A stretch of 64,000 bases of DNA from positions 4,832,028 to 4,896,027 of the forward strand of contig JAJEKV010000013.1 in assembly GCA_021234155.1 (NCBI GenBank). Reading direction: 5' to 3'. The stretch is from Isoetes taiwanensis. Lineage: Eukaryota > Streptophyta > Lycopodiopsida > Isoetales > Isoetaceae. Below, piece by piece: positions 986 to 31,869 of this stretch. Within the stretch, counting starts at the first letter, position 1, and each line of letters opens with the position of its first letter. Both the position numbers and the translations under genes were made by a program. Under the pieces are notes generated by a model that saw only the letters and a program-made list of their open reading frames with translations, was not told the DNA's origin and ran no database searches.

Positions 986-1079
986 GCCACGTCATTTGGG
1001 ATCAATGTGGTTGAGGGCATCCCTTGAACCTCCTATGCATAGTCAATGGTTTGTCATGCTGGTATCAAGGCGGACCACC

Positions 1080-5609: not shown

Positions 5610-6034
5610 TTATTGGATAAGAATAATCAAAATATTTATTTGGTAATATACCTCTGGTGGATGTTGTAGACATAGCATGAAGGCAGTAGTTGTAGCAATT
5701 ACCAGATTTATTGATTGAAAAATCTTATACATTTTCAAGTTACCACCTCTCAAGGGCTTTCAATACTTACCCAAGGGTGCCACAATTTCCAAAAAAATAG
5801 GGTTAACGGTCATGCCAACTCCAATACTTCTGCAAACAATGCTAGCAACAATGAGGATTTGTTTTCTTCCCAAAAAGAAGAATGCAAAATATTTTGACTT
5901 ATACCTTTGTAATAATGTGTTCTTACAGTTCTGCGGACATATATGCCCATCCAACACGTAATAAGAATTGCAATGGGGACCTGAGATGCAATCAAGGCCC
6001 AATATCCAACTCCACATGGTAGTAGATTCAGCAC
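5610..6034 (-). pseudogene. TauE/SafE-type sulfite exporter-like gene fragment (decayed)
   Basis: Plant TauE/SafE proteins are polytopic membrane proteins related to sulfite/sulfoacetate exporters. On the minus strand, 6034-5890 encodes a membrane segment with SQVPIAILIT, like the QxPVAV helix of the family. The next segment, RKQILIVASIVCRSIG followed by GMTVNPIFLEI, resembles the GG(M/F)I(L/I)(N/G)PxxLEL signature. The two lie in different frames across a T-run near 5885, and one added base would join them. A good donor (GTAAGT) follows VAPLG near 5764. A further weak match (ATTTAFML, then EVYY) lies at about 5690-5640 with no clear AG acceptor. The flanking exons of a roughly 450-residue protein are not visible. 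This is a broken remnant and the family call is moderate. Confidence 0.45.
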
Positions 6035-6663
6035 GCTTCGATTTAAGAAACAGACAACTTCATGTTAGTTTCATTATTATCTTAACAATTTATTATCTTA
6101 ACAAACGCTTTTGTTTTAAATCCTATGACATCCTATGAAGATCAAATTGAATTCATAAATTAACATATGTCTTAAACCAACAAAGAACTTTAGATTTACC
6201 TTGTTATTCTTAGTGCTCTTCAATACATGAACCGTAAAAAAAAGCAAGCCAAATCAAAAAAAAGATCGGGAGTTTGCACCAAGGACCCCTGAAACAATAC
6301 CCCTTGTTTTTCCTGAATGGTACTGCCCTTGTTTGAATATATCTCATTCTGCAACTTTGCGTACTCCACAGAATCATGCAGATGCAAATACATGCAAACA
6401 CATGCAAATACAGTAGAGTTTTAATCACCCAGCCACGAAGAATCCCCTTGTGGCCTAGCTGCACACCCAACTGGAACTGATGTAAAACTAAAGGCAAAGA
6501 AAGTTGTAACCCCCTTGTAAAACTAAAGCCAAAGAAAGTTGTGAGGAATAAAGCCAATTAATATGATCAATCCAAAGCCAGAAGAAGACTGCCTTAAAAC
6601 AACTTACAGGTAGAAACTGTTAAGGAAATACAGGAACAAAGAAATGCCAGCAAAGGCCCTATA
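6035..6663. other. no gene seen
   Basis: AT-rich spacer. A short direct duplication, AAAGAAAGTTGT with flanking bases, occurs at about 6494-6542. Nothing else can be supported. Confidence 0.4.
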
Positions 6664-6896
6664 TCTTTTATATTATAAAGTTATTCTGTAAGTGTTGGAC
6701 CCAGCCCTAGATCCGACGGCCCATATTTGATTAAAAATTTGGACGGTCGAAATATCCCTTCTCTTCTCGCTCTATGCGATTTAGGGATTTTGAAGAGGGG
6801 AGAACCCTATTCTTGCAGAGCAGGATCTTAAAATCTCCCCTGCTCCATTGGCCCCGACGGTATCGAAGGTCTCTGCTTTGCCCTTGGCCTCCACGC
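6664..6896 (+). repeat. left 233-bp terminal inverted repeat
   Basis: Starts TCTTTTATATTATAAAG and ends GGCCTCCACGC. Its last 50 or so bases are DCN1-like coding sequence, so captured gene sequence has become part of the arm. Confidence 0.85.
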
Positions 6897-7272
6897 TACT
6901 GATTTTCATGTCTTGATCTTGGCTTGGAAGCTTCAGGCCTCTCGCCAGGGTTATTTTACCCTGGATGAATGGCAGAATGGAATGGAACGATCCGACCATT
7001 TTTCTTTCAAGTATCGCTTGACCAAATCGCTGCAGAAGACCTTGGAATTGGACGTGGCTTGCCAGATGTTGGAGCTTATGATGCGAGATGGGAAAATTTA
7101 TGGGCTTTTAGTTCGTTCTTGGAGTTCTTGAAGGAGCAGAGGTAGTACAAGGGTCTTAATCTGGATCAATGGGCTTCTTTTTTGCGTTTTGCTGAAGAGG
7201 TAAAGCCCGATTTCGAGAATTATAATGAGAAGAACACGGAGAATTAGGTCCTGGATGGTTTCGTTAGAATAC
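6844..7272 (+). pseudogene. DCN1-like (DCUN1D, potentiating-neddylation domain) gene fragment
   Basis: DCN1-like proteins act as co-E3 factors that promote NEDD8 conjugation to cullins. The frame from 6847 reads IGPDGIEGLCFALG, then LILAWKLQASRQGYFTLDEW, which matches the start of the PONY domain (family pattern: I.P.GIE.LC..LG, LAWK...QGYFTL.EW). It continues with ELDVACQMLELM. Homology then moves to another frame (FLEFLKEQR, then NLDQWASFLRFAEEV and NYNEKNT, then VLDGFV), matching the family's Y(K)VIN.DQW..FL.F and NYD...AWP..LD.FVEW. There are in-frame TAG stops after KEQR and NTEN, and the WP acid-patch region is lost. No intron interrupts the roughly 140 codons. It is a non-functional captured fragment, and the family call is good. 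Confidence 0.75.
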
Positions 7273-7404
7273 AGATTTACAATTTTGATGCTGCTTCCAT
7301 GCCTGCTATCTTCCACAAAGAAATTCTAAGTTGCCATCCACAGGTATTAAGACGTGGATCATGCATGCATGACTACTTCATCTTTGGTTCATCTTTGGTT
7401 CTTT

Positions 7405-7637
7405 GCGTGGAGGCCAAGGGCAAAGCAGAGACCTTCGATACCGTCGGGGCCAATGGAGCAGGGGAGATTTTAAGATCCTGCTCTGCAAGAATAGGGTTCT
7501 CCCCTCTTCAAAATCCCTAAATCGCATAGAGCGAGAAGAGAAGGGATATTTCGACCGTCCAAATTTTTAATCAAATATGGGCCGTCGGATCTAGGGCTGG
7601 GTCCAACACTTACAGAATAACTTTATAATATAAAAGA
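7405..7637 (-). repeat. right 233-bp terminal inverted repeat
   Basis: Exact reverse complement of 6664-6896, including the DCN1-like codons, which therefore occur here in antisense. Confidence 0.85.
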
Positions 7638-8468
7638 AAAGATTGATTTTCTCCACTCACGAAGATCAAGAGGTCTATAGGGCCCTTATTATGCAACATG
7701 ATAAGAAAACTGTTGCCCTAAAAAGTCTTCGAGTGAATAACTTTAACAGTAATAAACTTACTGGTGAATATGTACATACCAAAGTGTTGAAGGCAAACAT
7801 AGTTGGGCTCGTCGGGGTCAAAAACCTCCAGGATATAAGATGCTAGTGTCGTCACTATCGGCATCTGCAAAAGCACATCATCCAGTGAGATTAGGTGTAA
7901 TGTATTAACGACAAAAAGCATGTATTGTTACCATCATCAAGGATTTTTTTTTAGGTTCGTTGAAGCCATTTGCTATGGGCTATTTGGTTCAAGTTTTGCC
8001 CATTGACTTGCCTTAGCTTTGCAGTATCCATTTTGTTGAATAGTGATATTTTCAAGTAGGGGGCATGCATAATCTGAAACTTTTGACATGAATAATGGCA
8101 TTCCCAAATAGTAAATGGGCCTTAAACACCAGACATGAATAGTGATATTTTCAAGTAGGGGGCGGGCATACTCTGAAACCTCAGACATGTTCATAGCACT
8201 AGGTTCACACATGTACACAATATATACGTAAAAGCAACGTAGATGCAAACCTGCCAACATAGCCAATCACATAGTGACACATGGCATGTTTATTTTGCAG
8301 GAATGTTGCATGAAAATTTAACTACGACCAAGAACAGTGTTTACGCGACATTCTTACTTTTATCTTCTTGTTTAACTTGCATTCTGGCATTTACCCTACG
8401 TTCTTCGTCTTTTACTTTGTATTCTTGGCTTCGGGATAGCATCTAAGTTGCTTCCACCTTATAGGAGT
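7638..8468. other. no gene seen; short direct repeat
   Basis: GAATAGTGATATTTTCAAGT with GGGGGC and ATCTGAAAC-like sequence occurs at about 8037-8092 and again at 8124-8181. Nothing coding is recognised. Confidence 0.45.
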
Positions 8469-8574
8469 GGCAATCTACCTTCCATTCCTGGCATAATAAG
8501 GTGATGTGTGTCAGCTGCACTACGCACTTTACACGATGCCTTATTTCCATGCCAGGAATGGCATGTAGATTGCC
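8469..8574. repeat. 106-bp near-palindrome (MITE-like hairpin)
   Basis: GGCAATCTACCTTCCATTCC at 8469 pairs with GGAATGGCATGTAGATTGCC ending at 8574, with few mismatches. Pairing continues inward (AATAAGG with CCTTATT), leaving a short loop region. The size and the lack of coding content suit a small foldback or MITE-type element. Confidence 0.65.
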
Positions 8575-8861
8575 ATTCTTGTATACATGTTTTGTAGTCT
8601 CTAACACAGTCATCCATTCGATTAATATTAAGAGTTCATCATTCAGAATCCCTAATCACTCTTCCCTTCACAATATTTTAGGGTTTATGCATAGGCTCCA
8701 TTAGTGGCACACCAATGCTCGGCATTGTTATTCACAAGTTAATTCTTTCAATTTTTATGACATCAAATTCCGATGCATATACAAAAATGAGGAGGTGTGC
8801 CATACTATTTTAAGACTTGTTATTCTAGACCGTTTGGGAAAATGCAAACGTTGCCTTTCCG

Positions 8862-9590
8862 ATGGGCTATAAACGGGGGTTGCATTTTCACAAATTAACG
8901 AAGCTAGGAGCAATGGAAGCTCATAGAGTAAAGGATCATCCTTTTAGTGATCTGATATTCCTCACGAATTTTGACAATACTTGCTCCCTCGAAGATACCA
9001 CAGATGTTGTTGCCCAGTTGGCAGGAGATTCTAGCAGGGCTTGCCATATAAAATGTCTTAGCATTCTTTCCAGAAATATTGAGGATTGCCTTGCACTCCA
9101 AATTTCATACAATTGTGCATTTGATTGGAAATTTCATCACTTTGATCTCTGGGATTTATTGAGGAAGCTTGAAGTTTTTGAAAAGGAGTTCAACCACCAA
9201 GTTATGGATCAGCAACTTCTCAAAGGCATTTGCAGAGAAAAAGTTAGAGTAGCAGCCAAAAAAGTTCCCTTACGTGAAAGTTGTTGTGAATTTTTGTTGG
9301 AGCTTGTAGCTTCTGATACACATATTCATATCATTTCAGCAAATTGGTCAAAGGATATGACTCAAAATGCATTGCCACATATTCAAAGCAATTTCTTTCC
9401 TATTCTCTCATGCAATCTTAGTTATGACAGGAATGGAGTCTATGATGGCAATGTAGAGTTAAAAATAACACACATTTAATAAAGAGATCATATCAGAAGA
9501 AATATATTGTTCAAAGCAGGAAAAGATGATGGTATTTATTGGAGATAGTATGAATGATATATTTTCAATGTTGGATGCATATTTGGATCG
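8862..9590 (+). pseudogene. TH2-type HAD phosphatase domain remnant (thiamine monophosphate phosphatase-like)
   Basis: Plant TH2 proteins join a TENA domain to a HAD phosphatase domain that dephosphorylates thiamine monophosphate. The 205-codon frame at 8862-9479 follows that HAD domain: LIFLTNFDNTCSLEDTTDVV aligns with motif I (normally DFDxT), followed by LRKLEVFEKEFN, VMDQQLLKGI and HIISANWSKDM. HAD motif IV appears afterwards as FIGDSMNDIFSML at about 9535-9573, but one frame away, so an indel near 9465-9480 breaks the gene. The first catalytic Asp of motif I is Asn (residue 36 of this frame). No TENA domain is seen upstream, and homology ends near 9590 at the GC-rich segment. No intron interrupts the span. 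It is a decayed fragment, possibly a retrocopy. Confidence 0.6.
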
Positions 9591-10645
9591 GTTTCTACAA
9601 GGTCGACCTCAGGACGCTCCGCCGTTTGACAAGTTTCCCCGGACCGATCTAGGAATCTTTTGGGCCTTCCCGAAAGAGGGCCCCTGAACGGACGATCCAA
9701 CGGTCGGATAGGGGAACCGGCCTCTGGAAGGGTGGTCATTAGCGTACCGCCCATCGTGGGAGCGTTGTTAGGAAGGGCTGCCTCGGGAACTTTTTTGGAT
9801 CCCGCCTTTTGGGGTCCGGACTCTCCCCTCTTGTGAGTGAGCCCTGCCAGGTCCTGGCCTCGTTTGACTTGGGGAAGGGTGCCAACTCGGTTGCCCCGCA
9901 ATGGGCTGCCCTGACCGCTCTAATGCTAGCCCTTTGATCTAGACCTTCTCCGAAAATTCTGAAAATTGGGCTGTGTGCTGGAGATGGATTAGGAATCCAG
10001 CTGGGAAAAAATCAGAATTTATTTTCGTACAATGCATTAATTACGAATTTATGAATGTCTTGCCACTACAAAAGCGGCCCCCAAATTCTAATTGCCACAT
10101 CAGGAGGAGGACAGGCCCAAACTCCATTCTGTCAGTTCCCCTTGCTCCGTGTTCTCAGCCGCAGCTTCTCGGCCACGTCCCAACTACAACAGACCAAAAC
10201 TCGACCCCCAAAACGCAAACCCTTCTAGAACCTGACAACCCACATGGTTTATGTTTCGGAGGCCCTCTCCTTGTCAGATTCGGCCGGGACCTTGCTCCGT
10301 GTCTTGTTGTGGAGTGAGGGTGTTGATGCCAGAGCACGAACCTTAAACCCCCCCCGGAAGCTGCTTGCCCCAAAAGTCCTCCCCCCAAGGCCCTGGGGAT
10401 GGATGGGCAACCTCCCCTCTCCAGAATCGTGATTTGGCACTGCCAATGGACTCAGAACGTCGACATTGCCTTGGGGACCAAGTTCTGTGACCAAAAGACC
10501 ACCCGACCTCCAAGAAGCGCCAAAGTAGCTCATGTCCAGCATACTCGTAGTCAATTGGCCTAGGATGTGGATGCCGGATACTGTCGTGCAGGGCGTGAGT
10601 GTTTCTTTCTTTTGCAAAATCGACCTTGTAACTTGCTCCCAAGGT
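9591..10645. other. GC-rich segment of unknown origin
   Basis: Base composition changes sharply to GC-rich from about 9590, at the end of the phosphatase remnant, and returns to normal near 10640, at the start of the tandem array. Frames open on both strands are P/R/G-rich and match no family I recognise. It could be part of an LTR element or an insertion of organellar DNA, but neither is supported by a recognisable gene. Confidence 0.5.
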
Positions 10646-10654
10646 TAATTTCGC

Positions 10655-12155
10655 CCAATGGATGTGTGGTGAGTTGGTATAGGCCTAGTAATGCCAAAAT
10701 AAATGTGCACTTGGACAGGGGTTCAAACCTGGCCAGTGTATGGTTATCTTTGGGAGTTGGTTACTGGTGTTATACGATGATGATCCCTGTCCTCCACTTT
10801 GGCTGCCGTAAGGCGGTAGGATAAGCCAACTAATCTGTACAAGATTAGTGTGGTATGAACCAGTAAAAATTGGCTTTCAGATTACTGTGGCTGGTTTACT
10901 GGTTGTTGCCTAAGAATTCCCCGACTTCCTAAGGCGGGATTCTATCCTGCCTACAAAGTGTGCATGTATGGCTAAAGTTTTGCCCAACGGATGTGTGGTG
11001 AGTTTGTATAGGCCTAGTAATGCCAAAATAAATGTGCACTTGGTCAGGGGTTCAAACACGGCGGTTGTATGGTTATTTTGGGAGTTGGTTCTTGAGGGTT
11101 ATCGATGATGATCCCGGCGTGGTAGAACTTGTGCCTATACGTGTCCTCCACTTTGGCTGCCGTAAGGCGGTAGGATAAGCCAACTAATCTGTACAAGATT
11201 AGTGTGGTATGAACCAGTAAAAATTGGCTTTCAGATTATGTGGCTGGTTTACTGGTTGTTGCCTAAAATTCCCAGACTTCCTAAAGTGGGATTCTATCCC
11301 TACAAAGTGTGCATGTATGGCTAAAGTTTTGCCCAACGGATGTGTGGTGAGTTGGTATAGGCCTAGTAATGCCAAAATAAATGTGCACTTGGTCGGGGGT
11401 TCAAACCGGCCGGTGTATGGTTATTTTGGGAGTTGGTTCTTGAGGGTTATCATGATGATGATCCCCGACGTGGTAGAACTTGTGCCTATCACGTGTCCTC
11501 CACTTTTTGGCCGTAAAGCGGTAGGATAAACCAACTAATCTGTACAAGATTAGTGTGGTATGAACCGATAAAATTGGCTTTGATTCTTGTGGGTGGTTTT
11601 CTTGGTTGTTGCCTAAAATTCCCCGACATCCTAAAGGCGGGATTCTATCGCCTACAAAGTGTGCATGTATGGCTAAAGTTTTGCCCAACGGATGTGTGGT
11701 GAGTTGGTATAGGCCTAGTAATGCCAAAATAAATGTGCACTTGGTCAGGGGTTCAAACCTGGCCAGTGTATGGTTATCTTTGGGAGTTGGTTACTGGGGT
11801 TATACGATGATGATCCCCGACGTGGTAGAACTTGTGCCTATACGTGTCCTCCACTTTGGCTGCAGTAAAGTGATAGGATAAACCAACTAATAATACAAGA
11901 TTAGTGTGGTATGAACCAGTAAAAATTGGCTTTCATATTACTGTGGCTGGTTTACTGGTTGTTGCCTAAAAATTCCCCGACATCCTAAGGCGGGATTCTA
12001 TCCTGCCTACAAAGTGTGCATGTATGGCTAAAGTTTTGCCCAACGGATGTGTGGTGAGTTGGTGTAGGCCTAGTAATGCCAAAATAAATGTGCACTTGGT
12101 CATGGGTTTAAACCTGACCAGTGTATGGTTATCTTTGGGAGTTGGTTACTGGTTT
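10655..12155 (+). repeat. tandem array of a tRNA-related (SINE-like) repeat, 4 full units plus 1 partial
   Basis: Units starting at GATGTGTGGTGAGT begin at 10661, 10990, 11339, 11691 and 12046, giving periods of 329, 349, 352 and 355 bp. The fifth is cut off near 12155. Each unit has an A-box-like GTGGTGAGTTGGTATAGGC and, about 45 bp later, a B-box-like GGTTCAAACC (altered in some units), as in RNA polymerase III internal promoters of tRNA genes. No tRNA anticodon arm or acceptor pairing is evident, so these are not functional tRNAs. The other 280 bp of the unit includes CCAACTAATCTGTACAAGAT and a GGCGGGATTCTATC block and is non-coding. Confidence 0.8.
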
Positions 12156-13164
12156 AACCCTTTTCCGATGGGACCATCTAAGGCCATTTGAACTGAGACA
12201 ATTTAGAAAATACGATAACACAAAGCAGATGAAGCTTTGGAAAGGCAATAGGAAGAAGAAGAGGAGGCTGATCTAAACAATCTGGTGGAGAGGGCGAAAG
12301 GAAAACGGGAAGAGGTAGTTTTCAATGCTCTAGGATTTATGCGCTCAGATTGAGATTGCAATCCAGGGCTAACTTCAAAGGCCTTGGACTTGTTTTCTAG
12401 GAGCTTCGACCAAAATGGTCCATTGGTTTTGTAGGAACATGGAAACGCACAAGAAAAGAATGTATTTTATGTCAATGGTTATGCTTGATAGCTAGAAAAT
12501 GGTTTTGAGAGTTGTGGATTATTTTTTGCAGAAACAATATGTGGTCATTTATATGTCATAATGAGGGAGTATTCTCCAAATCAAATGGTCAAACATAAAA
12601 ATCCAAAACTAAAATACCCTCCAATAAATTTGCACAATCATCTTTCTATTGTGGAAGGGTACTCAAGCAAAGGTTGAGAGTAAGATTTTGGTCTAGTATT
12701 GTATTTAAGGTCCTATAAATACAGGATTTGTGGAGGCTATTGTCAATTTTGAACAACTTAATTTCTTGAGTCTTTTTTAGCGGTTGTTCTCTCAATGGTT
12801 GAAAGAAGGGTTTAGCAGTCGCTCTCTCAATGGTTGAAAGTAGGAATTTCTTTTATACTGAAAGCAGAAAGTGGTGGGTTGCGGACACGACCTCCCAAAC
12901 CTGATTGGCATGCCGATTCTTGTGGATGTGCTACGGTCAGACATTGAAGGGCATTGCAGTTATGGAATGTGTAGGGCATCTACCTTACCGATCAATCTTT
13001 TTATTTATTTATTGAAGGACGTCATTCTATTCATCATCACATCATGAATACATTCTACATCAATTTATTCTACATATCATATGGAAACCAATCCACTACC
13101 TAGAACCTGCTTTGCATGTGATTATCGAGTACATATAGTAGGTTTAATGTCTTTACTATAGGAC
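12156..13164. other. no gene seen
   Basis: Unremarkable AT-rich sequence. A short repeat (CTCTCAATGGTTGAAAG) occurs twice near 12790 and 12822. Confidence 0.4.
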
Positions 13165-13310
13165 TGGTTGATCATACTTGAACTTGTGACCTCAGGACAA
13201 TAGATTTTTAAGGTCCCCATTACTAGACTGATAATGGCCAGGTTTTAAAACCGTGACCTCGGGCATGGCGGTTTAAGGTCCTGCCACTAGACCATGCCCC
13301 GAATCATTCT
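13165..13310 (-). repeat. two tRNA-derived SINE-like heads, adjacent, minus strand
   Basis: Read on the minus strand, 13300-13241 has GGCATGGTCTAGTGGCAGG, a good A-box-like D-arm (TGGTCTAGTGG), followed by GGTTTTAAAACC at the B-box position. Directly beyond it, 13240-13165 has a weaker version (CAGTCTAGTAATGGGGACC, then GGTCACAAGTTCAAGT). The layout suggests a dimeric or tandem tRNA-derived SINE, different from the array at 10.7 kb. Confidence 0.55.
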
Positions 13311-14649
13311 TGTCTGGTCTGTCTGGTCTATCTGGTCTTGAATATTCTTCGGCCAATTATGGAGCAAGCCTAAGAGGTGTTTCGCAGCAGTGTCATGGCC
13401 TTCTCTATCTTGCTTTTGTTTGTTACTGCTATTTTTTGCAGCAGCCCGATACGAAATGATATTCTATAGTGATTAATGGCAACCTCAAATGTCTGAATTG
13501 CATAGGCCTAGCAAGCATTAATAAGGATCCTTTCAAAAATTAGCTCACATTATGCAAGGGCAGCTAAGATTCTCTACACAACTGCAACATTTAACTGGCT
13601 CATAGCTTGCTTGACAACATATAGCCATAAAAATAATAATAACATGCTGGAAAATAATATGCTGGCTCATACGCTGGAAAATAATAATAATAAGAGGGGA
13701 TGGAGATTCATATCACACTAGAAGCAACTAAGCAACAGACATTTACAAAGTAAAATTTTAGCTAAGGGGATTGCCTTGTCCAGATACAAAAACATGCCTG
13801 GTTCGTTAAGTTATCCAGAGTTAGATAAGATGCTTCAGTGGCACTACAAGCATCACTATAAGCAAATCCAAAAAATGCCTTACAGAGTTGGGAATCAGTG
13901 GAGCTCAGGATATTTGATTGGTCATTAGTTCTAAGCTAAACTTCTATTCTTGAATCAGCCCTTGGTTTGTGACATGGGAAGAATGTCCAAGAGCATAAAC
14001 CAGTGAAAAGAATTTAATGAAACAGGAATCGTGAAGGCAGTAGACTCACAATCTGTGCGGCATTCAGCATTCATGTGATATCTAATTAAAGGTTTGATCA
14101 ATGCTTGAAACTTTATCACAATGAAGGGCCCTGCTGCAGTATTTGCCAGAGGCCCATTTTTCTTTAACAACAATAAAAGCGATTGTTCTTTAAGAACCAG
14201 TCATCTGAGAAAACACTGGAACTCGATATCTTGTTCCTTTAAATTGCATGCAGCAAGGAATCTGTTGTACCCAGCTCAGAAAGGTATGAATTACCCATGA
14301 TTAAGAGCTCTTTTTAGCTGCATAACAATTTTCACCATCGATTGCTGACTTTTTGAATTCTGCCTAATAGAAAATGTACCTAGAATTGTCCGCAGAGAAA
14401 TCCCAGAAAAGGCCATTCAGAGAAACTACCCTTGCTCTTATCTAAACCTCACACTTATATTGGAATATCCATGTGCGGTCCCAAAAAGAATTTAAAATGA
14501 AGCATGAACAGGCCATGTCCCTTCAAAGAAACTACCCTTGCGCTTATCCAAACCAATAAACCAATGTATCACAGTTGAGAATCACTTCGTATTTGGAATA
14601 TCCATGTGGGGTGCCAAGAAAAGAAAAGAAAAAAAAATGAAGCAAAAAT
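13311..14649. other. no gene seen
   Basis: Contains a short GTCTGGTCT repeat near 13317-13335. No coding or RNA feature is recognised. Confidence 0.4.
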
Positions 14650-15095
14650 GGCCAATGCCTATTCTTGGCCGATTCAATGGAAATCCTTTATGGAAATCAT
14701 TATCCAATGGGCCCCAACTTTTCAAGACTTTATCCCATGGCCAATTCAATGGAAATCCTTTATAGAAATTGTTATTCAATGGTCCTCAACCTTTCTAGGC
14801 TTTATCCCACGTTAGGCCCCACCCTTTCCAAGTTTATCCCATACCCCATAGATCATATCAAATTTTTGACATGGGAACTCCGTCATGGAAATCATTATCT
14901 AATATGGCCCCAGCCTTTCCAGGGTTTATCAGATACTCGTAGACCATATCAATTTCTCCACTTCCTCGTCATGCTTGCTGTCAAGCATGTGGAACACAAC
15001 AATGTTGCCACAAGAAATTGAACCTAATGTTATGCATTAGTACCTCATCCAATGGGCCCCAACCTTTCTAGGCTTTATTCCATACCTCATAGACT
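14650..15095. repeat. diverged short tandem repeats
   Basis: Blocks with TTCAATGGAAATCCTTTAT and CAACCTTTCTAGGCTTTATCC-like sequence recur at about 14673, 14741, 14775, 14890 and 15047 with varied spacing. They lie just upstream of the GH25 promoter. They are non-coding. Confidence 0.6.
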
Positions 15096-15192
15096 ATAAC
15101 ACTGACCCACCTATTTACACACCTGAGCACGAAAGCACGATGCGAAAAAGATGGTTCCAAAGTAACCTGGAGTTCCTGGAAGAAGCAGAGAG

Positions 15193-15204
15193 TCTATATA
15201 AAGC
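15193..15204 (+). promoter_or_regulatory. TATA box of the GH25 gene
   Basis: TCTATATAAAGC lies 45-56 bases before the start codon, a spacing that leaves a short 5' leader. It is a canonical plant TATA box and the only good one near this gene. Confidence 0.7.
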
Positions 15205-15248
15205 ACGGGAAGAAAGACAAGCTATACCATACTTCATATTCTGCAGTC

Positions 15249-15962
15249 ATGGAATTTGTGATTGCTACGCTGCTAATTAATGCGTTGCTTTTGGGTTGCT
15301 CAGCCAGCGTTCCGGGCATGGATGTGAGCTCCTGGCAGGGCAATGTTGATTGGAGTACTGCGTATGCTAATGGTGCCCGCTTTGCCTATGTTAAGGCCAC
15401 TGAAGGCAACTCTTACACCAACCCTTATTTCTCCCAACAATATACTGGATCTTACAATGTTGGTATGATCCGAGGTGCCTACCACTTTGCTCGCCCCGAT
15501 GTGTCTAGCGGTTCCTCCCAGGCCTCCTACTTCCTTGCCCATGGTGGCGGCTGGTCCGCCGATGGTAAAACCCTCCCTGGCGCCCTTGATATTGAATATA
15601 ATCCCTATGGTTCAACGTGCTACGGCCTCTCCAAATCCTCTATGGCCTCATGGATACTAGCATTCGTTAATGCTTACAAGAGTTCTACTGGAGTTTACCC
15701 TGTTATCTACACTACTACTGATTGGTATTCCACATGTGTTGGCACATATGGCGACTTTAGTGCTACCTGCCCCTTGTGGATTGCTCGATATGCATCCACT
15801 GCTGGTAGCTTGCCATATAACTGGGGCTATTACACCTTTTGGCAAAAGGCATCTAGTGGCACCTTTCCTGGTGACCAAGACGTTTTCAATGGGGACTTCG
15901 GCTCACGCAAAAAGCTTGCCCTTCTTTGCTTAAGCGTTGTTGGGTTTAAAATACACTATTGA
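15249..15962 (+). CDS. secreted GH25 muramidase (Chalaropsis-type lysozyme)
   Basis: GH25 enzymes hydrolyse the beta-1,4 bond between N-acetylmuramic acid and N-acetylglucosamine in bacterial peptidoglycan. The 237-residue product starts with a hydrophobic signal peptide (about 1-20, cut after SAS), so it should be secreted. The mature protein opens with GMDVSSWQG (Asp25). It has the GALDIEYNPYG signature (Asp114 and Glu116, the expected catalytic pair), YTTTDWYSTC (Asp158) and a family-typical PGDQDVFNG near the end. Cys124 and Cys163 could form a disulfide. There is no intron, and the frame is intact from a start 45 bases past a TATA box. Family members usually end soon after the KKLA motif; here 13 more residues follow. 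The sequence looks closest to fungal and bacterial secreted GH25s. GH25 is absent from most plants but reported in Selaginella as a transferred gene, so antibacterial defence is the likely role. Confidence 0.9.
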   Translation: MEFVIATLLINALLLGCSASVPGMDVSSWQGNVDWSTAYANGARFAYVKATEGNSYTNPYFSQQYTGSYNVGMIRGAYHFARPDVSSGSSQASYFLAHGGGWSADGKTLPGALDIEYNPYGSTCYGLSKSSMASWILAFVNAYKSSTGVYPVIYTTTDWYSTCVGTYGDFSATCPLWIARYASTAGSLPYNWGYYTFWQKASSGTFPGDQDVFNGDFGSRKKLALLCLSVVGFKIHY

Positions 15963-18534
15963 AAAATATCAGTAAAGGTCTTTTCCTTGAGGGGGAGTTT
16001 TTAGATCATAGTAGTAATGCTTTCACTGTATTATTTCAAATACATATACATATACATAAGAAAAATGGTATTACCAATGATGATGGTAAATGGTTATGAT
16101 ATATTTTAAACATGGATCTAAAGACTGAGTTTGTTAATTGGATCACTCTACGAAACCTTACATGATTATATGCACATCATATATGGTATGGATGTTGCGC
16201 ATATGGTACACTATCCTATTTATTTTATAGGTTTTGTGATAACTTGTAGCAAGGGCAGTTCAACTTTCTTTCTTTTTAATATTTTCAATTTGTCTTTTTT
16301 TTGCAAAAAATGCAAGTCTAGCCTCGATTGAGGAGATATGGGTTGTTTTCTTTTTCCCTTCTACTTGCAAAAAAGATGGTTTAATTTTGATTTTATCATC
16401 TCTAGTTTTGCATGCTACCATGCAAAGAGTATTGTTTATGTCCAGTATTACTCTGAGGTTTTAAATCACGCAGGCCAAATTTGAAGGTAAAATTGTTTAC
16501 ACTGAAGGCTTAGTAAGCCTTGATAATAATGTGTCCATAAGCGGCTATGGCAGAAAAACCAACTTTGGGACATGGCTCGGCACCATTTATCTTTGACCCT
16601 CAAAGCTCTACTATCGATCTGCTCGAAAAATATCTGGTATACAGGGCCGCTTGAAGCAGAATAATGTAAAGCACGCATTGTTGTTTTGCAAGCATGCTTT
16701 AAAGCGAGCAAGTTCCGGTTGCAAACTACATCAGTTTGAGCATCTGCTTCAAAATATAGGACTTAGTGCTTCTTGGAAAAGCTGTATTCTAGACGGCATG
16801 GGATTTTAAACAAATTGGTCAGACTTTCTTACCAATAAATCTGGCCTTCTCTGTATTGTTTGTAGGCCACGCGGCCAGGCAAGTGAATTATAACAGATGT
16901 TGGACCTGTTCATGTACAAAAAACTGAGCAAAATTTGATTCATGAGTGACTGCTAAATTTTATGTAGCCAAAAGGCACTGCTAAATTGCCTGCCGATATG
17001 TATCAACCATCAGTACATAAGTTTGTGACTACTTGATAAATTTTGAGTGGCTCTTTTCTTTCATTCTTAAGTTGCATAGCCTTTCTCATTATCTATATTG
17101 GTTTATTGATGATATACATTGGTTCGGATCAATCATGTCTTCTTTTTTTTGAGTCTATATTGATCAGATAAAAACCTAACTTAGAGATAGGTACATACGT
17201 ACTTGTGGTTGCTAGCACACTTGCCCACAATACCAATTGATGTTCCAAAAGTGATTAAATCTGTCATTGGTCCACAGATCAGTCTAGATTTACCATTGTT
17301 TTTAGGTAAATCATTAAAGCCCTACACATCAAAATGAGCCACACCAATGCCTCCAGTTATTCCTGTTAGTGCCACTAAAGTCACTGAATTTGCAATGTGG
17401 AAAAAGGTCACAATGCACAAAGGATTGTTCAATATGGTTAGGAGTGACACTCTCTGACGTTACCACCACCATGCCTGATGGGGAGGAGTTGCATCCTGGA
17501 TTCCAGGTTCAATATTGAAAACATGTTGGAAGGCATAAGAGGGACAACTTGGAGTGGTGCTCGGACTGCTGGGAGAAGAAGTGGAGGACAAATTCTACTT
17601 CCTATTAAAGCTAAAATTACTTGAATCGGAGTCTGGAATGTTAAGTTATGGTCTTCTAAATTTGTACAATTTATCATGTATGAAAAGTTAATATAATTTG
17701 TGATTTTAGACTTTGATTTAGGTGATCTTAGTTGATATCATTCTCATCTACAATACTTCTGAAGGATATGATTCCATTTGGATCATTACAAAAAGTTACA
17801 GTTATTTCTTTGAAAGATACCCCTAAAACATGGGCATTTTCACTATTTTGCATAAATATAGGAGTATTTTTATAGATTGCCCTTAAAAAACATTATAATT
17901 TAAAACTAAAGGGGGTTATTTTATTGGATCTATGCATTCCACCTATCGAAACATACCGATTCACATTGGGAGTTGATCGGATTATCTTTACCACATACCA
18001 GTGTGATACCCTTGTTGTAGGCCTGTAACTTGTGTCCTGAGAATTGCAACCTCTTTTTCATTAACCACATAAAGCACATGCATTCTTTTGATCTCTTCAG
18101 TTCCATTCATAGCTACTCCAAGCTTTCCTCATCTGTCGACTTGAAATTCCATGGTGCACATTCCAAGAGGTAGGAAGGCGTAGAAGTTTTCCATATTGTA
18201 ACTTTGATCCAATTGATCATGTGGACTGTGAAGCCTAATACATTTGAATAACATACCCGATAGCAATAGGTGCAAGCTTGTTGACTTCGACCAAAGCACT
18301 CACACCATTTTGTAAATGTAGTATGCTACGTTATTATCCTCAACTGAATCTATCTTATCCCTTGGTTCTTTAACCGATTCGTTCCTTGGGATTTGAACTT
18401 CGACAGACTTAGGGATAGGTTCTGTACGTACAGAATTATTTTTCTGTACGTATAAAGTCCACAAATACGTATTTTTAGGTAAAAAAAATGTATTTCCCGT
18501 ATTTTTCCCTCGCCAGCTAGAAAATTTTTTTTTA
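15963..18534. other. no gene recognised
   Basis: AT-rich DNA downstream of GH25. On the minus strand at 18420-17950 a run of broken frames (for example EVQIPRNESVKEP) looks like decayed protein-coding DNA, perhaps retroelement, but I cannot name it. A 16-bp palindrome TTCTGTACGTACAGAA lies at about 18420. Confidence 0.4.
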
Positions 18535-18640
18535 GCGTAAGCGAAACTGAGGTTTCGCTTACGCGAAAAAAAAAATTTATTTTCGCGTAAGCGAAATAGC
18601 TGTTTCGCTTACGCGAAACTGTTTTTGCGTAAGCGAAACA
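18535..18640. repeat. five alternating copies of GCGTAAGCGAAA
   Basis: GCGTAAGCGAAA(C/T) appears forward at 18535, 18585 and 18627 and reversed (GTTTCGCTTACGC) at 18552-18564 and 18602-18614. Neighbouring copies form perfect 12-13-bp stems with 4-7-base loops. A-rich and T-rich linkers separate the pairs. Confidence 0.9.
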
Positions 18641-18907
18641 ACGAAAATAAAAACTAGCAGAACTGCAGGGTTGGGAAGAAAGCTAGGTCGATGGATTTGG
18701 GTTGGAATTTTAATTGTAGTAATTTAAATTTTAGTGGCATGCTAAGAGAATATGTATTAATATATAAAGGAAGGAAGTTAGGGAGTAATGAAAGGCCAAA
18801 AGAAAGATTGATTAAAATTAGATAATAGGTGAGTAACACACTATGGAACTATTGCCTGGCAAAGTCATGTCTCAAATTTTCTTTTTTCTTTTAAATATAT
18901 ATGTGTG

Positions 18908-18980
18908 CCATTGCACCTAACGCATTTAAATTAAAATCCCCCTGAAACCCCCTTTGGTTTGGGTGCATATTCACATGGGG
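18908..18980 (+). repeat. left 73-bp inverted repeat of the outer element
   Basis: Contains CCCCCTGAAACCCCCTTTGG and TTTGGGTGCATATTCACA. Its partner is at 37041-37113. Confidence 0.85.
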
Positions 18981-18989
18981 GGTTTACTC

Positions 18990-19258
18990 CGGGCATCAAG
19001 AGCTGTCGGATGGGCATATTTGCCCTTTATTAAATCTTGCGACATGTGAAATGGCGATTTTAGAATTTTGACAGCAACGAGTTCTTTTTTCTTGCGATCC
19101 ATAGCTTTAACCACCAAGCCGTAGGATCCTGCTCCAAGTCCGTCCATGTATATGAAACGGGGCATATCGGAAATCTCATCCTTCAACATGCTGGTAGATG
19201 AAGGCGCCCACATCTGTCGATTTGCAGCAACCAAAGCCATGTCTATGCTTGGCTCCAA
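18990..19258 (-). pseudogene. protein kinase N-lobe fragment captured next to the inverted repeat
   Basis: Minus-strand codons give MDGLGAGSYGLVVKAMDRKK and ELVAVKILKS. These are the glycine-rich loop (GAGSYGLV) and the VAVK lysine that bind ATP in eukaryotic protein kinases. The match fades after ILKS, and the frame ends inside the left inverted repeat, so the C-lobe and catalytic loop are missing. The fragment sits at the edge of the outer element, as expected for a captured host exon. It cannot be an active kinase. Which kinase family it came from cannot be told from this length. Confidence 0.6.
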
Positions 19259-19639
19259 CTAGATAAATAGATGTGTGCTTGGATGGGAAATATGGAGACA
19301 TGAACATATCCATAAAACAGGAAATTGTACAGAACGTGAGGCTTTGAAATAGGGTTACGATTATCTGTGCTGCTACCGGATCAGTTGTATCATAAAATTT
19401 AGAGCTACGAAATGGGCAACAGGAGGAAGGCCACTTCCTCCTCACAAAAGATCTGAGATGATCGATGATGCCACTACTTACGGAATTAAGAGATGAAGTC
19501 TGAGAAACTCCGACTAGCGATCCAGCGATTTAAGTGCATGAGAACAAAAAACTCCACACGAGAACCTTGAATTCAAAGCCATCTTTGTCTAAACCTAACC
19601 CTTGGCGGGACTCTCACTTTGAGAAAACCATCGATGAGT

Positions 19640-22600
19640 ACTTGAGACCAAATTGGCAGACCTAGTGGCAGAAACCACTAAAGAGCAGATGATTTTGCAT
19701 CAAGATAGGATATCTGTTGAGAAAGTAGAGCAAGAAGCCAGGGCCAGAAATCTAAAAATTTCTGGCATAGAGGAGATTGAGATTGAGGATATTTCTAAGA
19801 CAATTGAGCAATTCTTGGGGATATTATGCATTTGCATGAGCCCCAATTTGTACAGGCAGCGTATAGGCAAAAGGTCCTACAAGGCCAATTCTGGTGAAAT
19901 TCAAAGATGAAGAGGCTAGAAGCGAGTTTTACATAACCACGGACACACTAAAAGGTCACAAAATCTTTGGACCAAGATCGACAGCTTGCACAATGAGGAG
20001 ATTAGGAAGAGGGAATGGAACAAGGTAAAAGAAGCAAGAGCAAATGGAATAGTAGCATACACGGGCGGTCGCGAGGGGAAAGCCATCATAACAAAAGCGA
20101 AGAAGAGACTAGGAAAGCGGGGCCTTGAAGGTGTTAGCATGGAATATGCGTGGATTGTCAAAAAGAAAAATGGATGCATCGGGCAAGATTCAGATTTGTT
20201 ACTATTATCCGGAGACATGGGAGCGTAATCCGCCCCCTTCGAGGAACTCTGAGGGATTTGATTATAGGGAGTGCACGGAATGAGAAAGACCGGGGGCGGG
20301 GAAGAGGATATGGTGGTGTATCGGTCTATGCTAAATCGGATATTGCGCTCTATGTTATTTCCCCTTGAACATGCACATTTATGATCACCTGAATTGTGCG
20401 CGAGCCAACCCATTCCATCAGTTATGCAAAGATACACTCCAAAATCAGGAATTGGGAGAGGTCCTCCTTGTTGGAGACTTTAATGCAAGGATCAAAACAC
20501 CGCAAACAACCTCTTATGCAACATTAGGAGATATCCGTTTGCTTGAGGAAGAAGATCACGCCTTCAAAAGGCGGTCGGCGAGATAATGTTAGAAGCGGTA
20601 TGGGAGATCAGTTTTACGGGTTGGAAACAATCTGCCATCTCAAAATCTGAATGGCATCCACGATTTTCCCAGATTCTTGTGCGAACACTTGTTTGACCAC
20701 TTGGGATCTAATGCGGTTGATTACCTACTTGCAAGCAGTCAAAATTGGTAAGGAATTTCTATGTGGCAAATAAGATGCGAGAATCGACCATGCTCCACTA
20801 TGCTTTGAAGCTGGCGGGATTAGCATCCGCCCGAAGAAGCCAAGCTAAGTTTACTCAAAGCTAAAGTTGAATTACGGAGGGTAGCCGATTATCGCGAGCA
20901 TCTAGAAGACAAGCTAGCATGCTACATGGGCCGGGGAGGTAGGAAAAGATGCCGCTTTGAGTTCTCAAACATGTTACATCGGCTGACTAGAAAAGTTTTG
21001 GATGCACAAAACAAAGGAAGCGGGGAGCAATGGCTGGTGGGATCGGAATGCGGTGCGGCAAAGGCGGCATTACCCTCTGGATGCCCTACGCATAAACCAA
21101 AATGGTATAAGGCACTAATTGAGGAAAGAAAGAAGATACTTTCGGACACGGCAAGAGTCCCTTGAGAAATGGTTACGTGAGCACCCAAAAACCTTTTGGA
21201 AGCTTGGCTATCAACTAAAACACCCCAAAGCGGATCTAGATCCCACAGGCGCTACGCATGATTCGAGAAATATATTCTCACAATCTTTGAAACCATGAAA
21301 TCGAGGAGGTTGTAGATTCGGATATGTTCACAACATGGGATGTGATGAGGCACTTAAAGACATGCCAAATGGGAAGGCGGCTGATTTACAAGGTCTAAGC
21401 ATTGAGCTATTGAAATGGAGTGGAGATAAATCCATAGAGATTGTAACAAAGTTGATGAACCAAGCTGTTATACAAGGTGCGCCACAAAGCTGGAAGGAAA
21501 AGCGAGAGTTTTTCAATCCACAAAATAGGGGATAAAAACAATGTGTGCAATTCTGGGGATGATTTTAATCGGCGGTATGTTCTCTAAGGCTGCTAGGAAG
21601 TTTATTAGCAAGAAAACTTCGGTTTATGGGCTGATGCAAATGAGAAAAGAGCCCATTTGCCGGGCGGTTTTAGAAAACAACCTTGCACTCTTGATCACGC
21701 GCTTAGCTGCGAAAGTGTTGATCGAAAAAGGCAAAACAACCCGGGCAGGCGTTGTATCGGCCTTCATTGACCCTTAAAAGCATTTGTCTGATTCCTCGAA
21801 AGGACTTGGGGATCTGAATGGAACACCTTGGAGTACCAAAGGAAATTAGAGGAGCTATCTCCAACTATACTCAAGTGATAGCCAAGTTATCGTGGAATTT
21901 GATGGAGAAATTTGAAGCACTATAGGTGTTTCGGGGTGTCCGTTGTCCCCCTGACCGGTCTATACATAGACGAGCTTGAAGAATGGTTAAGAACAAGAGG
22001 TTTAGCAGGTTCTCAGTTGGGTTAGTTCCTGGTCCAACTTCTATTGTATGTTGATGACGTAGTACTGGTGGCAAACAAACCTGAAGGTTTACAATCCCAT
22101 CTTGACGATCTGGCAACGTTTTGTGAGGTAAGACACATGAAAGTCAATTTGGCCAAATCGAAAGTGATGGTGTTTAGACTTACATTCACATTTAAGGGTG
22201 AGACACTAGAAATTGTAGATAGCTACAAATATCTGGGACTAGAATTTTCGGCAAAATATAGTTGGAAAGAGTGCATCAGGAAACGGATAGAGGGCAGCAA
22301 GAAAGCTTTATATGGTATGCTAATAAAATGTTATAAGGCATCTCTCACAGACTGGGGACTCAGAAAAATCCTATTCAAAACCTTAGTCGGGACAGTAGTC
22401 TTATATGGCTCACCTATAAAGGGGGCCTTGCATCTCAACTCATCAATGGACCTGAGGTTGAATCGGTGTTGAAGATATTTCTCCGGAGAATTAGGAATTA
22501 AACAACGATTCCATATGCAATACTATTGGCGGTGGCATGCTCCCTTTGGAGGCGAAGCTTTATATCGGACATTGAACTTTGTTACAAGGATTATAGCAAG

Positions 22601-22827
22601 CGGCCGGATGGCGTTTACCTAAGTTGGCACTATCCCAATCCTCATCCACGGGATGGTGCCCGTGATGTGTTGTATGGGCTGAGAAATGGGGATATCCATG
22701 GATGGGTTACCGGAACCACGAATATTGGTGCCGAGATTTGAATCTGAACCACGAGTTATAGAAGCTTTGGGCACACAAGGGTTCCGCATGGTTATATATA
22801 CATCAGAAGTGAATCCCTTATTGATAT
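19640..22827 (+). mobile_element. LINE retrotransposon, 5' part (ORF1, endonuclease, reverse transcriptase), degenerate
   Basis: Broken frames appear in LINE order. About 19653-20130 is ORF1-like: ARARNLKISGI, a charged helix, then LKGHKIFGPRS and HNEEIRKREWNKVKEAR, as in L1-like ORF1 C-terminal domains. About 20280-20560 is AP-endonuclease-like (GYGGVSVYAKSDI, then LLVGDFNARI). About 21320-22470 is reverse transcriptase: MPNGKAADLQGLSIELLKW, then the catalytic MYVDDVVLVANKPEGLQSHL at 22044 and KVNLAKSKVMVF. Many stops and frameshifts show it is dead. The element is cut at 22828 by a large insertion and resumes at 36456. Confidence 0.75.
22044..22472 (+). pseudogene. LINE reverse transcriptase, YVDD palm and thumb segment
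   Basis: Longest surviving open frame of the LINE (142 codons). It opens with MYVDDVVLVA, the YxDD active-site motif with two catalytic aspartates, followed by the helix ending KVNLAKSKVMVF and the VDSYKYLGLEFS block, which is characteristic of LINE reverse transcriptases. It then runs into the connection region (YGMLIKCYKASLTDWGLRK). The upstream palm motifs are in other frames, so no complete enzyme is encoded. Confidence 0.8.
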
Positions 22828-22854
22828 CATTAGGGCGGATTTGGGGGTCTGAAA

Positions 22855-23480
22855 ATGGCCTCTATCGGCCATTCCCGTCATATTTCGCTCCCTTTTTCCC
22901 ATGCCACCTAGGATACCAAACTCTCATAATTCTGATTTGCTTGGAATATTCTTAGGAATAAGGGGATTGCATATTCATGGGCCATATGTATTTAATTACA
23001 TTTGGTTGTCGGGCGGGTTGATGCAACACGTGGCGCTTCTAAAATGCCACTTGCATTATAGCATACCAGGCAACTCATGGCGGTGTGTCTCTTGGTAAGC
23101 GTCGCGGCGTCACCGCCTTCTACATTTCAAAAGTTGAATGTGTAGGTTGAAGCTTTGTATCGGTCGGACTTTCATTTGAATTTGACTGCGCCTTATAACG
23201 ATCTTCACTTCATCCTAATACGGGCTTCCGCCCCTACAATTCAAATTTGAATTTGCTTAATGTATAAAAGCATGGATTGTAGGAGAATGGACTTTTCGAT
23301 TTCCATATGCGCGTTGCAAATTTCAAAAGCGAAGTTAATGCGGACGTTCGGCTCACCACGAAGCGAATTGTGTTGGGGCATAAAAATACCACACCTTGAT
23401 TTGGCGCCGATGCGATCTACGATATGGAAGTTGCTTGTTGTCAAATTAAACTTAAACACAAGTGAGGTCGGCACTTACGT
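22855..23480 (+). repeat. subterminal direct repeat, copy 1
   Basis: About 575-620 bp starting just inside the left arm. It shares in order GCCATATGTATTTAATT, CCACTTGCATTATAGCATACC, GGCAACTCATGGCGGTGT, TATAAAAGCATGGATT and GTTGCAAATTTCAAAAGCGA with copy 2. Homology to copy 2 is clear, though copies differ by substitutions and small indels. Confidence 0.8.
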
Positions 23481-23624
23481 GGTTTTCTCGAGGAGGGTTT
23501 GGAGTGTTTTTTTTAAATCCCAATTATCGACATAGTGTGGCGTAGCATCTTGGTATTAAATAGTATGTTAAATTCGAATTATATATCGGTGTTCATTTTC
23601 TGGTTAAACTCAAATCATATAGGT

Positions 23625-23735
23625 TTAGGAATAAGGTTAAAAAAGGAAGATATTGGCTATTTAGGAATAAGGTTAAAAAAGGAAGATATTGGATATTTAG
23701 GTATAAGGTTAAAAAGGAAGATATTAGATATGGCT
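23625..23735 (+). repeat. three-copy tandem repeat of about 33 bp
   Basis: TTTAGGAATAAGGTTAAAAA followed by GGAAGATATTGG is repeated three times with slight drift, giving an LGIRLKKEDIGY peptide repeat in one frame. Coding is not supported. Confidence 0.8.
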
Positions 23736-24636
23736 CAAATTTGAGATATGCACATAATGGCATGTAATGATGGTTGATAGGACTGGAATCTGAATCATTC
23801 CTACGATTTTCACGTCTAATCCAGCCTATATCTATTCCGGCCCTAGATTGGCCCATTCTCCCCAATCTCGCCCAATCTTTGCTAGATCCTCGCCCAATTT
23901 CTCTAGTCCATCGCCATGAAGAGATCAGCTACGGAAGAAGCTGGGAGGTGTCCTCAAGAAGCGCCTATTGCGGCTGGAAGAGGTGTTCCCTCATGATTCC
24001 CTCCGCTGCCCACGGTTCTTGCTCTGAATGCCTCTCGATTCCTCGATTCCCTCGATTCCTTTGGCGAGGAATCGGAGAATGAGAAATCGAGAGGAAATTT
24101 CGAGCGAGGAGTTCATCACAGGTGTTCTTGAAGGCTGGATAGGAGATTCTTGAAAATGAGTGGTCTAAAGCGGAGAAAGCCGAAGATGATGAAGAAGATG
24201 AAGAAGTTGAAAGCGAATCTGGCGACTTGAGGAGCTCATGGCGTTAGTTCATGGTACATGCATGTTTTCTTTCTTTTCTTAAGCATTCAACTAACGGTTA
24301 TTTCTTATTTTTTTTTGCGGATGATGAAGCGGATGAATGAAATTTGTTAGGGCGAGAGCACCTCTTATTTTTTTTTCCTTGTTCTTAGTCGAGCTTGCCT
24401 CCGACTTCTTACCATATATTTGCAAGCCTCAGGGCTTTTTGTTGTGAATAGTTGAAGCCTCAGGGCATTTAAATTTACAAAATGATGTAAAGCCATCTGA
24501 CCATAAAAATTTTGAATGTAAAAGTTTTTGCTTCTAATTCCATTTGAATACCTAACTTTTTTTTTCTTGTACATGTGTTACCACTCTTAAGTACATAAGT
24601 CATCATCCCTTTTCAAAGAGCATATTATTTTTTCAA

Positions 24637-24705
24637 GGATCACACCAGCCCGAATAGTACATATGCAACAAAAATGGAACACACTAAATTAGCATCGTGT
24701 GATCC
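24637..24705. repeat. inverted-repeat module 1 (69 bp)
   Basis: GGATCACAC at the left and GTGTGATCC at the right are perfect reverse complements. The right arm reads AGCATCGTGTGATCC, matching the family arm GGCGTCGTGTGATC. Confidence 0.75.
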
Positions 24706-24714
24706 ACTTTCTTA

Positions 24715-25430
24715 TTTGTTGTCAAATTAAAACTAAACACAAGTCCCTCGTCAATAGTCTCCCATTTGCATATAAAATATCTATCATTCCAAGTTATATT
24801 ATGTTTTATGAACTAAAATGGCCTCCTATCGACCATTCCGTCATATTTCCGCCCCTTTTTTCCGTCGGATTTGCTTGAAATATTCTCCGGAATAAGGGAA
24901 TCGCATATCTATGGCGCCATATGTATTTAATTCTCTTGTTGTCCAGGACAGTTGGCCTTAACACGTGGCTTCTAAAAAGCCACTTGCATTATAGCATACC
25001 GGCAACTCATGGCGGTGTCTCTTGGTTTGTCGGATACCAATCATGCGCATCACTTAGATTCTTGTCTTGCCCTATTTTCATTTAGAGTCCATTCCGCCTT
25101 CTACATTTCAAAATTTGAATGTGTAGGTTGAAGCTTTGTATTAGACTTTCGTTTAGAGCTGCGATTGCGCCTTAAAAGTTAAATCTTAGGGATCTTTACT
25201 TCATCCCAATCAGGGGCTTCCGCCCCCTACAATTCAATTTTGAATTTGCTTTAATATAAAAGCATGGATTATAGGAGAATGGACTTTTCCATGCTCTGCG
25301 TTGCAAATTTCAAAAGCGAGGTTAGTGCGGATTTGAGCCTCAAGCGAAGCGGGAATTGTCTTTGGGGCATACAAATTGTACACATTCATTTGGCGTCGAT
25401 GCGATCCCGCAGCGGTATGGAAGCTCAAAT
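24715..25430 (+). repeat. subterminal direct repeat, copy 2
   Basis: Repeats 22855-23480 about 1.96 kb further on. The TTGTTGTCAAATTAAA-ACACAAGT segment lies after the homologous block in copy 1 but before it here, so the order is rearranged or the unit was tandem. Confidence 0.75.
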
Positions 25431-28180: not shown

Positions 28181-28184
28181 GCTT

Positions 28185-28274
28185 GGCGTCGTGTGATCTT
28201 ATTTGTATCATCATCTGGCCTTGAGCGATTGGGTTAAGCTATTGCTTGCATTTATGTGGCTTGGCGTCGTGTGA
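28185..28274. repeat. two right-arm motifs of the inverted-repeat module (modules 2a and 2b)
   Basis: GGCGTCGTGTGATC at 28185-28198 and GGCGTCGTGTGA at 28263-28274, 78 bp apart and in the same orientation. Left arms are decayed: TCACCACACCTTGAAG near 28134, and TCATCTGGCC near 28210, which resembles the left arm at 30153. Confidence 0.55.
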
Positions 28275-29056: not shown

Positions 29057-29121
29057 TATCACACCATGCGAAATCGCACCACGAGCTTTAAAACCCTATG
29101 AAGGGTTTAAGCCGTGTGATA
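29057..29121. repeat. inverted-repeat module 3 (65 bp)
   Basis: TATCACAC and GTGTGATA form the ends. An inner stem (GCTTTAAAACCCT with AGGGTTTAAGC) adds a second hairpin, so almost the whole module folds. Confidence 0.75.
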
Positions 29122-29157
29122 CATCTTAATCATTCTCTCTACCACGGATATTGAAAA

Positions 29158-31848: not shown

Positions 31849-31869
31849 TAAATACAAATAAAATAATTT

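Follow-up and report, generated by a model that had tools for sequence, protein, structure and literature searches.

A nuclear gene of Isoetes taiwanensis encodes what we read, with a probability of about three in four, as a small secreted GH25 lysozyme that reached the plant by horizontal transfer, the source being a bacterium of the actinomycete/Lysobacterales subfamily, and that has since been duplicated there. The gene was found in a stretch of 64,000 nucleotides (henceforth the window), corresponding to positions 4832028-4896027 of C941, a scaffold of 22,989,298 bp, in which it lies at ~4.85 Mb (C941:4847345). Plant GH25 as such is already known from Selaginella; our literature search, which covered titles and abstract openings, found no report of a GH25 in Isoetes or a fern among the matches listed.

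An intronless gene encodes a GH25 muramidase

The GH25 open reading frame occupies positions 15249-15962 of the forward strand, running from ATG to TGA without an intron over 237 codons as assembled, while near-identical copies elsewhere in the genome have 227. Its stop-to-stop frame spans 289 codons. When 60 windows of 64 kb were simulated with an order-1 Markov model, their longest frames had a mean of 157.5 codons and a maximum of 234, and the frame is thus not a product of chance. The Pfam profile PF01183 matches residues 24-208 (15318-15872, forward strand) over profile positions 1-179 of 180, with an E-value of 1.8e-52 and a score of 178.7 bits for a cut-off of 27; an NCBIfam search with the same protein returned no family at E 0.1. 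We computed an AlphaFold2 model from the window protein together with 43 of the 80 bacterial relatives introduced below. The model has a mean pLDDT of 85.2, with values per 10-residue block of 87-98 over residues 21-210, and Foldseek matched it to 6zm8, 2x8r, 6zmv and 1jfx with target-normalised TM-scores of 0.88-0.94, the best PDB match being 6zm8 (E 1.6e-27). Among the nearest solved enzymes, the fungal AaMur shows 57% identity and three others 49-53%. The catalytic DXE motif is present as D114-I-E116 (15588-15596, forward strand), equivalent to Asp95/Glu97 of AaMur, and is followed by a DQDVFNG motif at residues 209-215 that includes D209 (15873-15893, forward strand); D25, D114, E116 and D209 are invariant in the comparison with the solved structures of three fungal enzymes and one Streptomyces enzyme. 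As judged by the full-length profile match, the catalytic residues and the predicted barrel fold, the window protein is a GH25.

Hydropathy points to a probable signal peptide at residues 1-19 (MEFVIATLLINALLLGCSA; 15249-15305, forward strand), with a mean of 2.65 over residues 3-15. The solved fungal chains align to the window protein only from residue 20-21 on, and a diverged paralogue (L084, see below) likewise begins with a hydrophobic leader. A core-promoter-like element, the candidate TATA box TATATAAA (15195-15202, forward strand), is placed 54 bases before the ATG by its consensus match and its conservation: it is identical in both near copies (on contigs C484 and C1073), and the string CTATATAAAG recurs in L084, 154 bases ahead of the assumed start codon. 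Further upstream, degenerate direct repeats of 36-72 bases fill positions 14413-15083, and it is in the stretch matching these positions that the C1073 copy differs by indels from the other two.

The gene resides on duplicated segments of the plant nuclear genome

We searched the I. taiwanensis assembly (1,658,258,908 bases, 1110 contigs) for further family members. PF01183 marked seven places, three of them on C1065 (9.3 Mb) with two of these coming from one broken copy, and a DNA search gave eight matches. Four copies are full-length and without stops: the window copy (L083), L081 on C484 (100 kb), L082 on C1073 (7.9 Mb) and the diverged L084 on C984 (1.05 Mb). The picture of a lone intact copy amid decayed DNA, drawn in the original prediction, was therefore mistaken, the window copy being one of four and the one with an odd C-terminus.

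The window, C484 and C1073 copies sit on recently duplicated segments with common non-coding flanks. The segment shared with C484 extends over 10649-19031 (97.5% over 8427 columns), that shared with C1073 over 13720-19031 in four pieces (90.7-97.6%), and the same duplicated segment continues beyond an insertion at 36863-37758 (97.1% to C484, 95.7% to C1073). Possibly C484 is the window locus itself, assembled as an alternative haplotype; the number of loci would then be three rather than four. The insertion, ~17.8 kb at 19032-36862, has no counterpart at the corresponding places on C484 and C1073. It ends on the right with (ATT)n, contains a reverse-transcriptase fragment (22026-22472) and probably consists of one retroelement, or several nested ones, that entered once the segment had been duplicated; a search of positions 18900-37000 found no direct-repeat family of at least 120 bases.

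The published assembly was described as made from non-axenic plants and as needing contaminant screening (PMC8566536), which brings up bacterial contamination or misassembly as the source of the gene. We give this reading practically no credence. The gene lies 4.85 Mb into a 23-Mb scaffold, its duplicates on two further contigs have the same non-coding flanks, a diverged paralogue occupies a 1.05-Mb scaffold and broken copies a 9.3-Mb one, and a GC3 of 0.477 is no longer bacterial. A Pfam scan of 20 window ORFs raised a single family above cut-off, a reverse transcriptase fragment (E 2.3e-9), with flanking ORFs giving matches below cut-off to a kinase fragment (3.1e-4), DUF7810 (1.2e-5), and PPR-like (0.017), histone-like (0.012), Cullin_binding (0.029) and DUF5447 (0.088) families; a tRNA search found none. 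The plant identity of the locus is accordingly read from the assembly and not from the neighbouring ORFs. Since the duplicated segments share their flanks and lie on large scaffolds, contamination is excluded: instead of a contaminant clade lacking linkage to plant DNA, we find a GH25 gene that is integrated in the plant nuclear genome.

Several minor features accompany the family. On C1065, four broken GH25 places, seen as DNA matches, fall within ~53 kb (C1065:8135692-8188478) and form a decayed local array, in which the two longer fragments resemble L084. Inspection of L084 by eye shows, downstream of the TATA box, tandem copies of a 54-base unit (L084 1315-1422) in which the start-codon region recurs; they give two in-frame upstream ATGs, with a possible 36-residue extension before the leader. 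The L084 protein also has a 7-residue insertion just after DIEYNP (segment CGSSCTRAQKC, at about residues 124-134) that adds two cysteines. In the window, positions 9589-10655 form a ~1.07-kb unit of which C484 begins with nine head-to-tail copies (389-10177; 80-83% identity), and an open frame of 216 codons at 8829-9479 matches no Pfam family at E 0.1 and has a chance-like best PDB match (E 0.072). This frame may resemble the phosphatase part of a plant bifunctional TH2 protein.

The C-terminus of the window copy is aberrant

Up to residue 216 the window copy and L081 encode the same amino acids; from residue 217 on, the C-terminus of the window protein is unlike that of both near-identical copies in the genome. 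Comparison with the other full-length copies delimits a private stretch at 15898-15962 (forward strand), by which the window copy ends in FNGDFGSRKKLALLCLSVVGFKIHY, whereas L081 and L082 (227 aa) end in FNGDYAHLQKLALAA, L084 in FNGPYTQLQKLAKGP and many bacterial relatives in FNGAYDRLQALANG. L081 and L082 have no differences (0/73) in the C-terminal stretch, two 15-base strings of the window version are absent from C484 and from the 20-kb stretch of C1073 that was examined, and the pLDDT of the window model drops below 50 at residues 218-225 and 227-237. At the DNA level, ~2.67 kb of the window are identical to C484 up to position 15898, where 18 differing columns follow over 15898-15943. More dense clusters of differences are seen at 16445-16454, 16620-16648, 17713-17800 and 18399-18635. 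Isolated differences between the window and C484 also become more frequent past 17.7 kb.

These alignments suggest that the private stretch probably arose by a local consensus error, the likeliest source, or by private mutations. A decaying pseudogene, with working copies only among its sisters, would leave ~20 C-terminal residues that match no other copy, and broken members of the family do exist on C1065. We nonetheless hold this to be rather unlikely for the window copy: its protein does not depart from that of L081 before residue 217, and the clusters at 15898-15943, 16445-16454 and 16620-16648, set amid identical stretches of up to ~2.67 kb, follow the pattern of nanopore consensus errors. 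Because the C-terminus differs from that of the sister copies, the word intact and the length of 237 residues in the original prediction probably fail for the last ~20 residues; the intronless frame with its domain, leader, DIE and DQDVFNG motifs and TATA box stands.

The plant protein probably has ancestry of the actinomycete/Lysobacterales type

To place the gene among its relatives, we scanned GTDB contigs and obtained matches in at least 594 stretches, at least 589 of which encode relatives; 80 were kept for comparison. The closest among the matches listed come from Luteimonas (73.2% identity), Goodfellowiella (72.7%) and Micromonospora (~70%). Broader searches turned up no closer relative: in the phylum to which the Micromonospora genome belongs, 85 of 396 genomes gave a match (best 70%), and in the order that includes the Goodfellowiella genome, 122 of 249 did (best 72%, from Goodfellowiella itself). 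With an identity of ~70-73%, the Goodfellowiella, Micromonospora and Luteimonas enzymes share FPGDQ..(F/W)NG with the plant protein. Of the 77 columns with a conservation of 95% or more across the 80 bacterial rows, the plant protein preserves 75 and departs at two (R149V and W160Y). The three bacterial groups differ from it in their GC3 of 0.77-1.0 and in having no Cys at position 174, and many actinomycete and Lysobacterales GH25s have a longer N-terminal part, as far as rough ORF lengths tell. Cellosyl of Streptomyces coelicolor (1jfx) has the family, fold and catalytic residues of the plant protein, but is only 49% identical, and in the first tree described below its branch is long and set apart from the plant genes.

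Phage and plasmid sources were tried and rejected. Matching phage records number 137, all below 60% identity (top-ranked 47.7%, among the best 15 of 137), and matching plasmid records 246, likewise all below 60% (best 57.6%, among the best 15 of 246). A scan of viral_contigs gave four pattern matches and no relative.

The fungal muramidases AaMur (6zm8), TzMur (6zmv) and AfMur (2x8r) resemble the plant protein as single-domain enzymes of the same fold with the DXE motif and Cys174, at 57, 53 and 49% identity for the three. They carry GGDS where the plant has PGDQ before FNG, together with other residues absent from the plant protein, and the GH25 gene of A. oryzae has an intron inside the domain, unlike the plant gene (PMC4241558).

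Phylogenetic analysis was carried out on two samples. In the first tree (85 rows), the window protein fell in a weakly ordered bacterial zone, joined to the three fungi (67/83, unstarred), and the AU test gave p 0.36 for a position with Micromonosporales and p 0.34 for Lysobacterales. In the second tree (80 rows), to which the second paralogue was added and from which long rows were dropped, the two plant genes formed one clade in 997 of 1000 bootstraps and grouped with Goodfellowiella in 934 of 1000 (93/91, unstarred), with plants and fungi joined in none of the 1000. Here the AU test rejected neither the fungi (p 0.31) nor Lysobacterales (p 0.19) as the sister group. The fungal grouping thus appeared and then vanished with sampling, so that the trees do not fix the donor, and an AU p of 0.31 still allows a fungal sister group.

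A transfer from fungus to plant, or one transfer common to the plant and fungal genes, would account for Cys174 (15768-15770, forward strand), a residue of both plant paralogues and of all three fungal enzymes that occurs in only 1 of 115 bacterial rows (in which a few genes are represented more than once), a distant one of ~34% identity. Three further residues are common to the plant and at least two of the three fungi and occur in no more than 10% of the 80 bacterial rows, and the first tree placed the plant protein with the three fungi alone in 671 of 1000 bootstraps, a grouping that survives the AU test in the second tree. The same grouping disappears from the bootstraps once the second paralogue is in and the long rows are out. 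Against the four fungus-shared residues (Cys174 and three more, all rare in bacteria) stand 25 that the plant shares with half or more of the bacteria and that none of the three fungi has, the criteria for the two counts not being symmetrical; identity reaches at most 57% to the fungi, of which three PDB enzymes were sampled, compared with up to 73% to the bacteria. On balance we consider the fungal route improbable. A horizontal origin with ancestry of the actinomycete/Lysobacterales GH25 type is supported by these comparisons, and the direct donor may well have been a bacterium.

Horizontal acquisition, as originally predicted, is hence upheld as regards bacterial-type ancestry in plant nuclear DNA. 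The phylogeny against bacterial and three fungal GH25s returned the bacterial zone, with a sister group that varied between the two trees; in the nearest-relative comparison, identity favours bacteria (73%) over a fungal set of three (57%).

The Isoetes GH25 family has been under purifying selection

We compared the two diverged paralogues L081 and L084 codon by codon. Counting over 227 codons gave a dS of 0.66 and a dN of 0.168, and a codon model implemented in a custom script gave an omega of 0.204 over the 208 codons of the mature domain (LRT 48.2, p 3.8e-12) and of 0.242 over the whole protein (p 1.8e-11). The dN/dS check, run here between Isoetes paralogues, rejects neutrality with an omega of ~0.2 and so bears out the claim that the gene has been selected. 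The near copies L081 and L082 differ by four synonymous changes and one nonsynonymous change, the latter in the leader, and their coding DNA up to FNGD is 0.76% different compared with 3.5% and 3.1% in the flanks. The GC3 of the plant gene, 0.477, compares with 0.765-1.0 in the 80 bacterial relatives, and together with the dS of ~0.66 between the diverged paralogues it speaks for a long stay in the plant. In a simulation of neutral decay (400 runs on 10 of the 80 relatives), the identity kept was 16.2% on average and 37.6% at most, with at least two stops; this simulation assumes a GC-rich donor and a custom mutation model, and the paralogue dN/dS serves as the main evidence instead. We conclude that purifying selection on the family after transfer is supported. 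The whole-genome duplication of I. taiwanensis has been given a peak Ks of ~1.8 (PMC8566536). Since the dS of ~0.66 between L081 and L084 is lower, albeit obtained by a different method, the duplication that separated them appears to be later than the whole-genome duplication, yet not recent.

A related family is known from the sister order

A plant GH25 was described in 2014 in Selaginella moellendorffii and termed the only plant case, with no others in 132 plant genomes as given in that report (PMC4241558). As described there, the Selaginella genes resemble those of Isoetes in their actinobacterial affinity and in having several paralogues (four on two scaffolds); they have non-bacterial flanking genes and a 203-aa alignment, and a figure legend marks introns in fungal and aphid genes only (PMC4241558). 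The likeness is drawn from the published description, and the two hosts belong to different orders: Selaginellales is the sister clade of Isoetes, from which over 300 million years divide it (PMC8566536). The original prediction had cited the Selaginella precedent while taking the host for a fern. As the host is the lycophyte I. taiwanensis, in the sister order of Selaginella, the precedent is even closer than was supposed.

We see even odds that GH25 entered lycophytes once, before the split of Isoetales and Selaginellales over 300 Myr ago, and that it has served them as a secreted antibacterial enzyme ever since. Such a history would mean that a vascular-plant lineage has carried an antibacterial gene of bacterial origin for a very long time, and plants that perhaps keep plastid peptidoglycan would need to prevent the enzyme from reaching their chloroplasts. 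The selected, multi-copy Isoetes family represents either one acquisition more than 300 Myr old or parallel uptake in sister orders, and both would be unusual.

The enzyme may act on the walls of bacteria

GH25 enzymes are described as working with an Asp as the acid, a Glu in support and the N-acetyl group of the substrate as the nucleophile (PMC7954357). Judging from the family, the leader of the Isoetes protein would send the enzyme through the secretory pathway; D114 would protonate the MurNAc-GlcNAc glycosidic bond (the beta-1,4 bond of bacterial peptidoglycan), with E116 in support and the substrate N-acetyl group as nucleophile, and bacteria close to the plant cell would have their walls weakened by the hydrolysis. 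Expression, secretion and muramidase activity are presumed for the plant GH25 from its sequence. A recombinant lysozyme of the GH25 family was reported to have broad-spectrum antibacterial action (Metcalf et al., PMC4241558). An attack on bacteria is the simplest role for a secreted lysozyme; it agrees with the enzyme class, the leader and the selection on the family, and we lean toward it.

How a plant that perhaps keeps plastid peptidoglycan tolerates a muramidase of its own is a question that the gene raises, and the enzyme might in principle trim the peptidoglycan of the plant's own chloroplasts, in plastid division or wall turnover, rather than kill bacteria. Antibiotics against peptidoglycan synthesis are described as affecting lycophyte chloroplasts (PMC9434261). 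In the Isoetes genome we found a weak penicillin-binding transpeptidase match at one place (E 1.3e-6), whose matched stretch contains five stops, as expected of a gene that is decayed or split by introns, and D-Ala-D-Ala ligase matches at five places (best E 2.6e-6), one of them over the cut-off; weak and exon-like as they are, these matches make a plastid peptidoglycan pathway plausible. Plastid transit peptides, however, usually have a basic, serine-rich stretch, whereas the N-terminus of the GH25 protein is a short hydrophobic leader without one, and both diverged paralogues have such a leader. The leader thus suggests secretion of the plant GH25, and a role in the plastid seems to us quite unlikely beside the antibacterial one. 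The weak transpeptidase and D-Ala-D-Ala ligase matches lie ~10 kb apart at C1032:7091256-7101961, hinting at a retained plastid peptidoglycan pathway.
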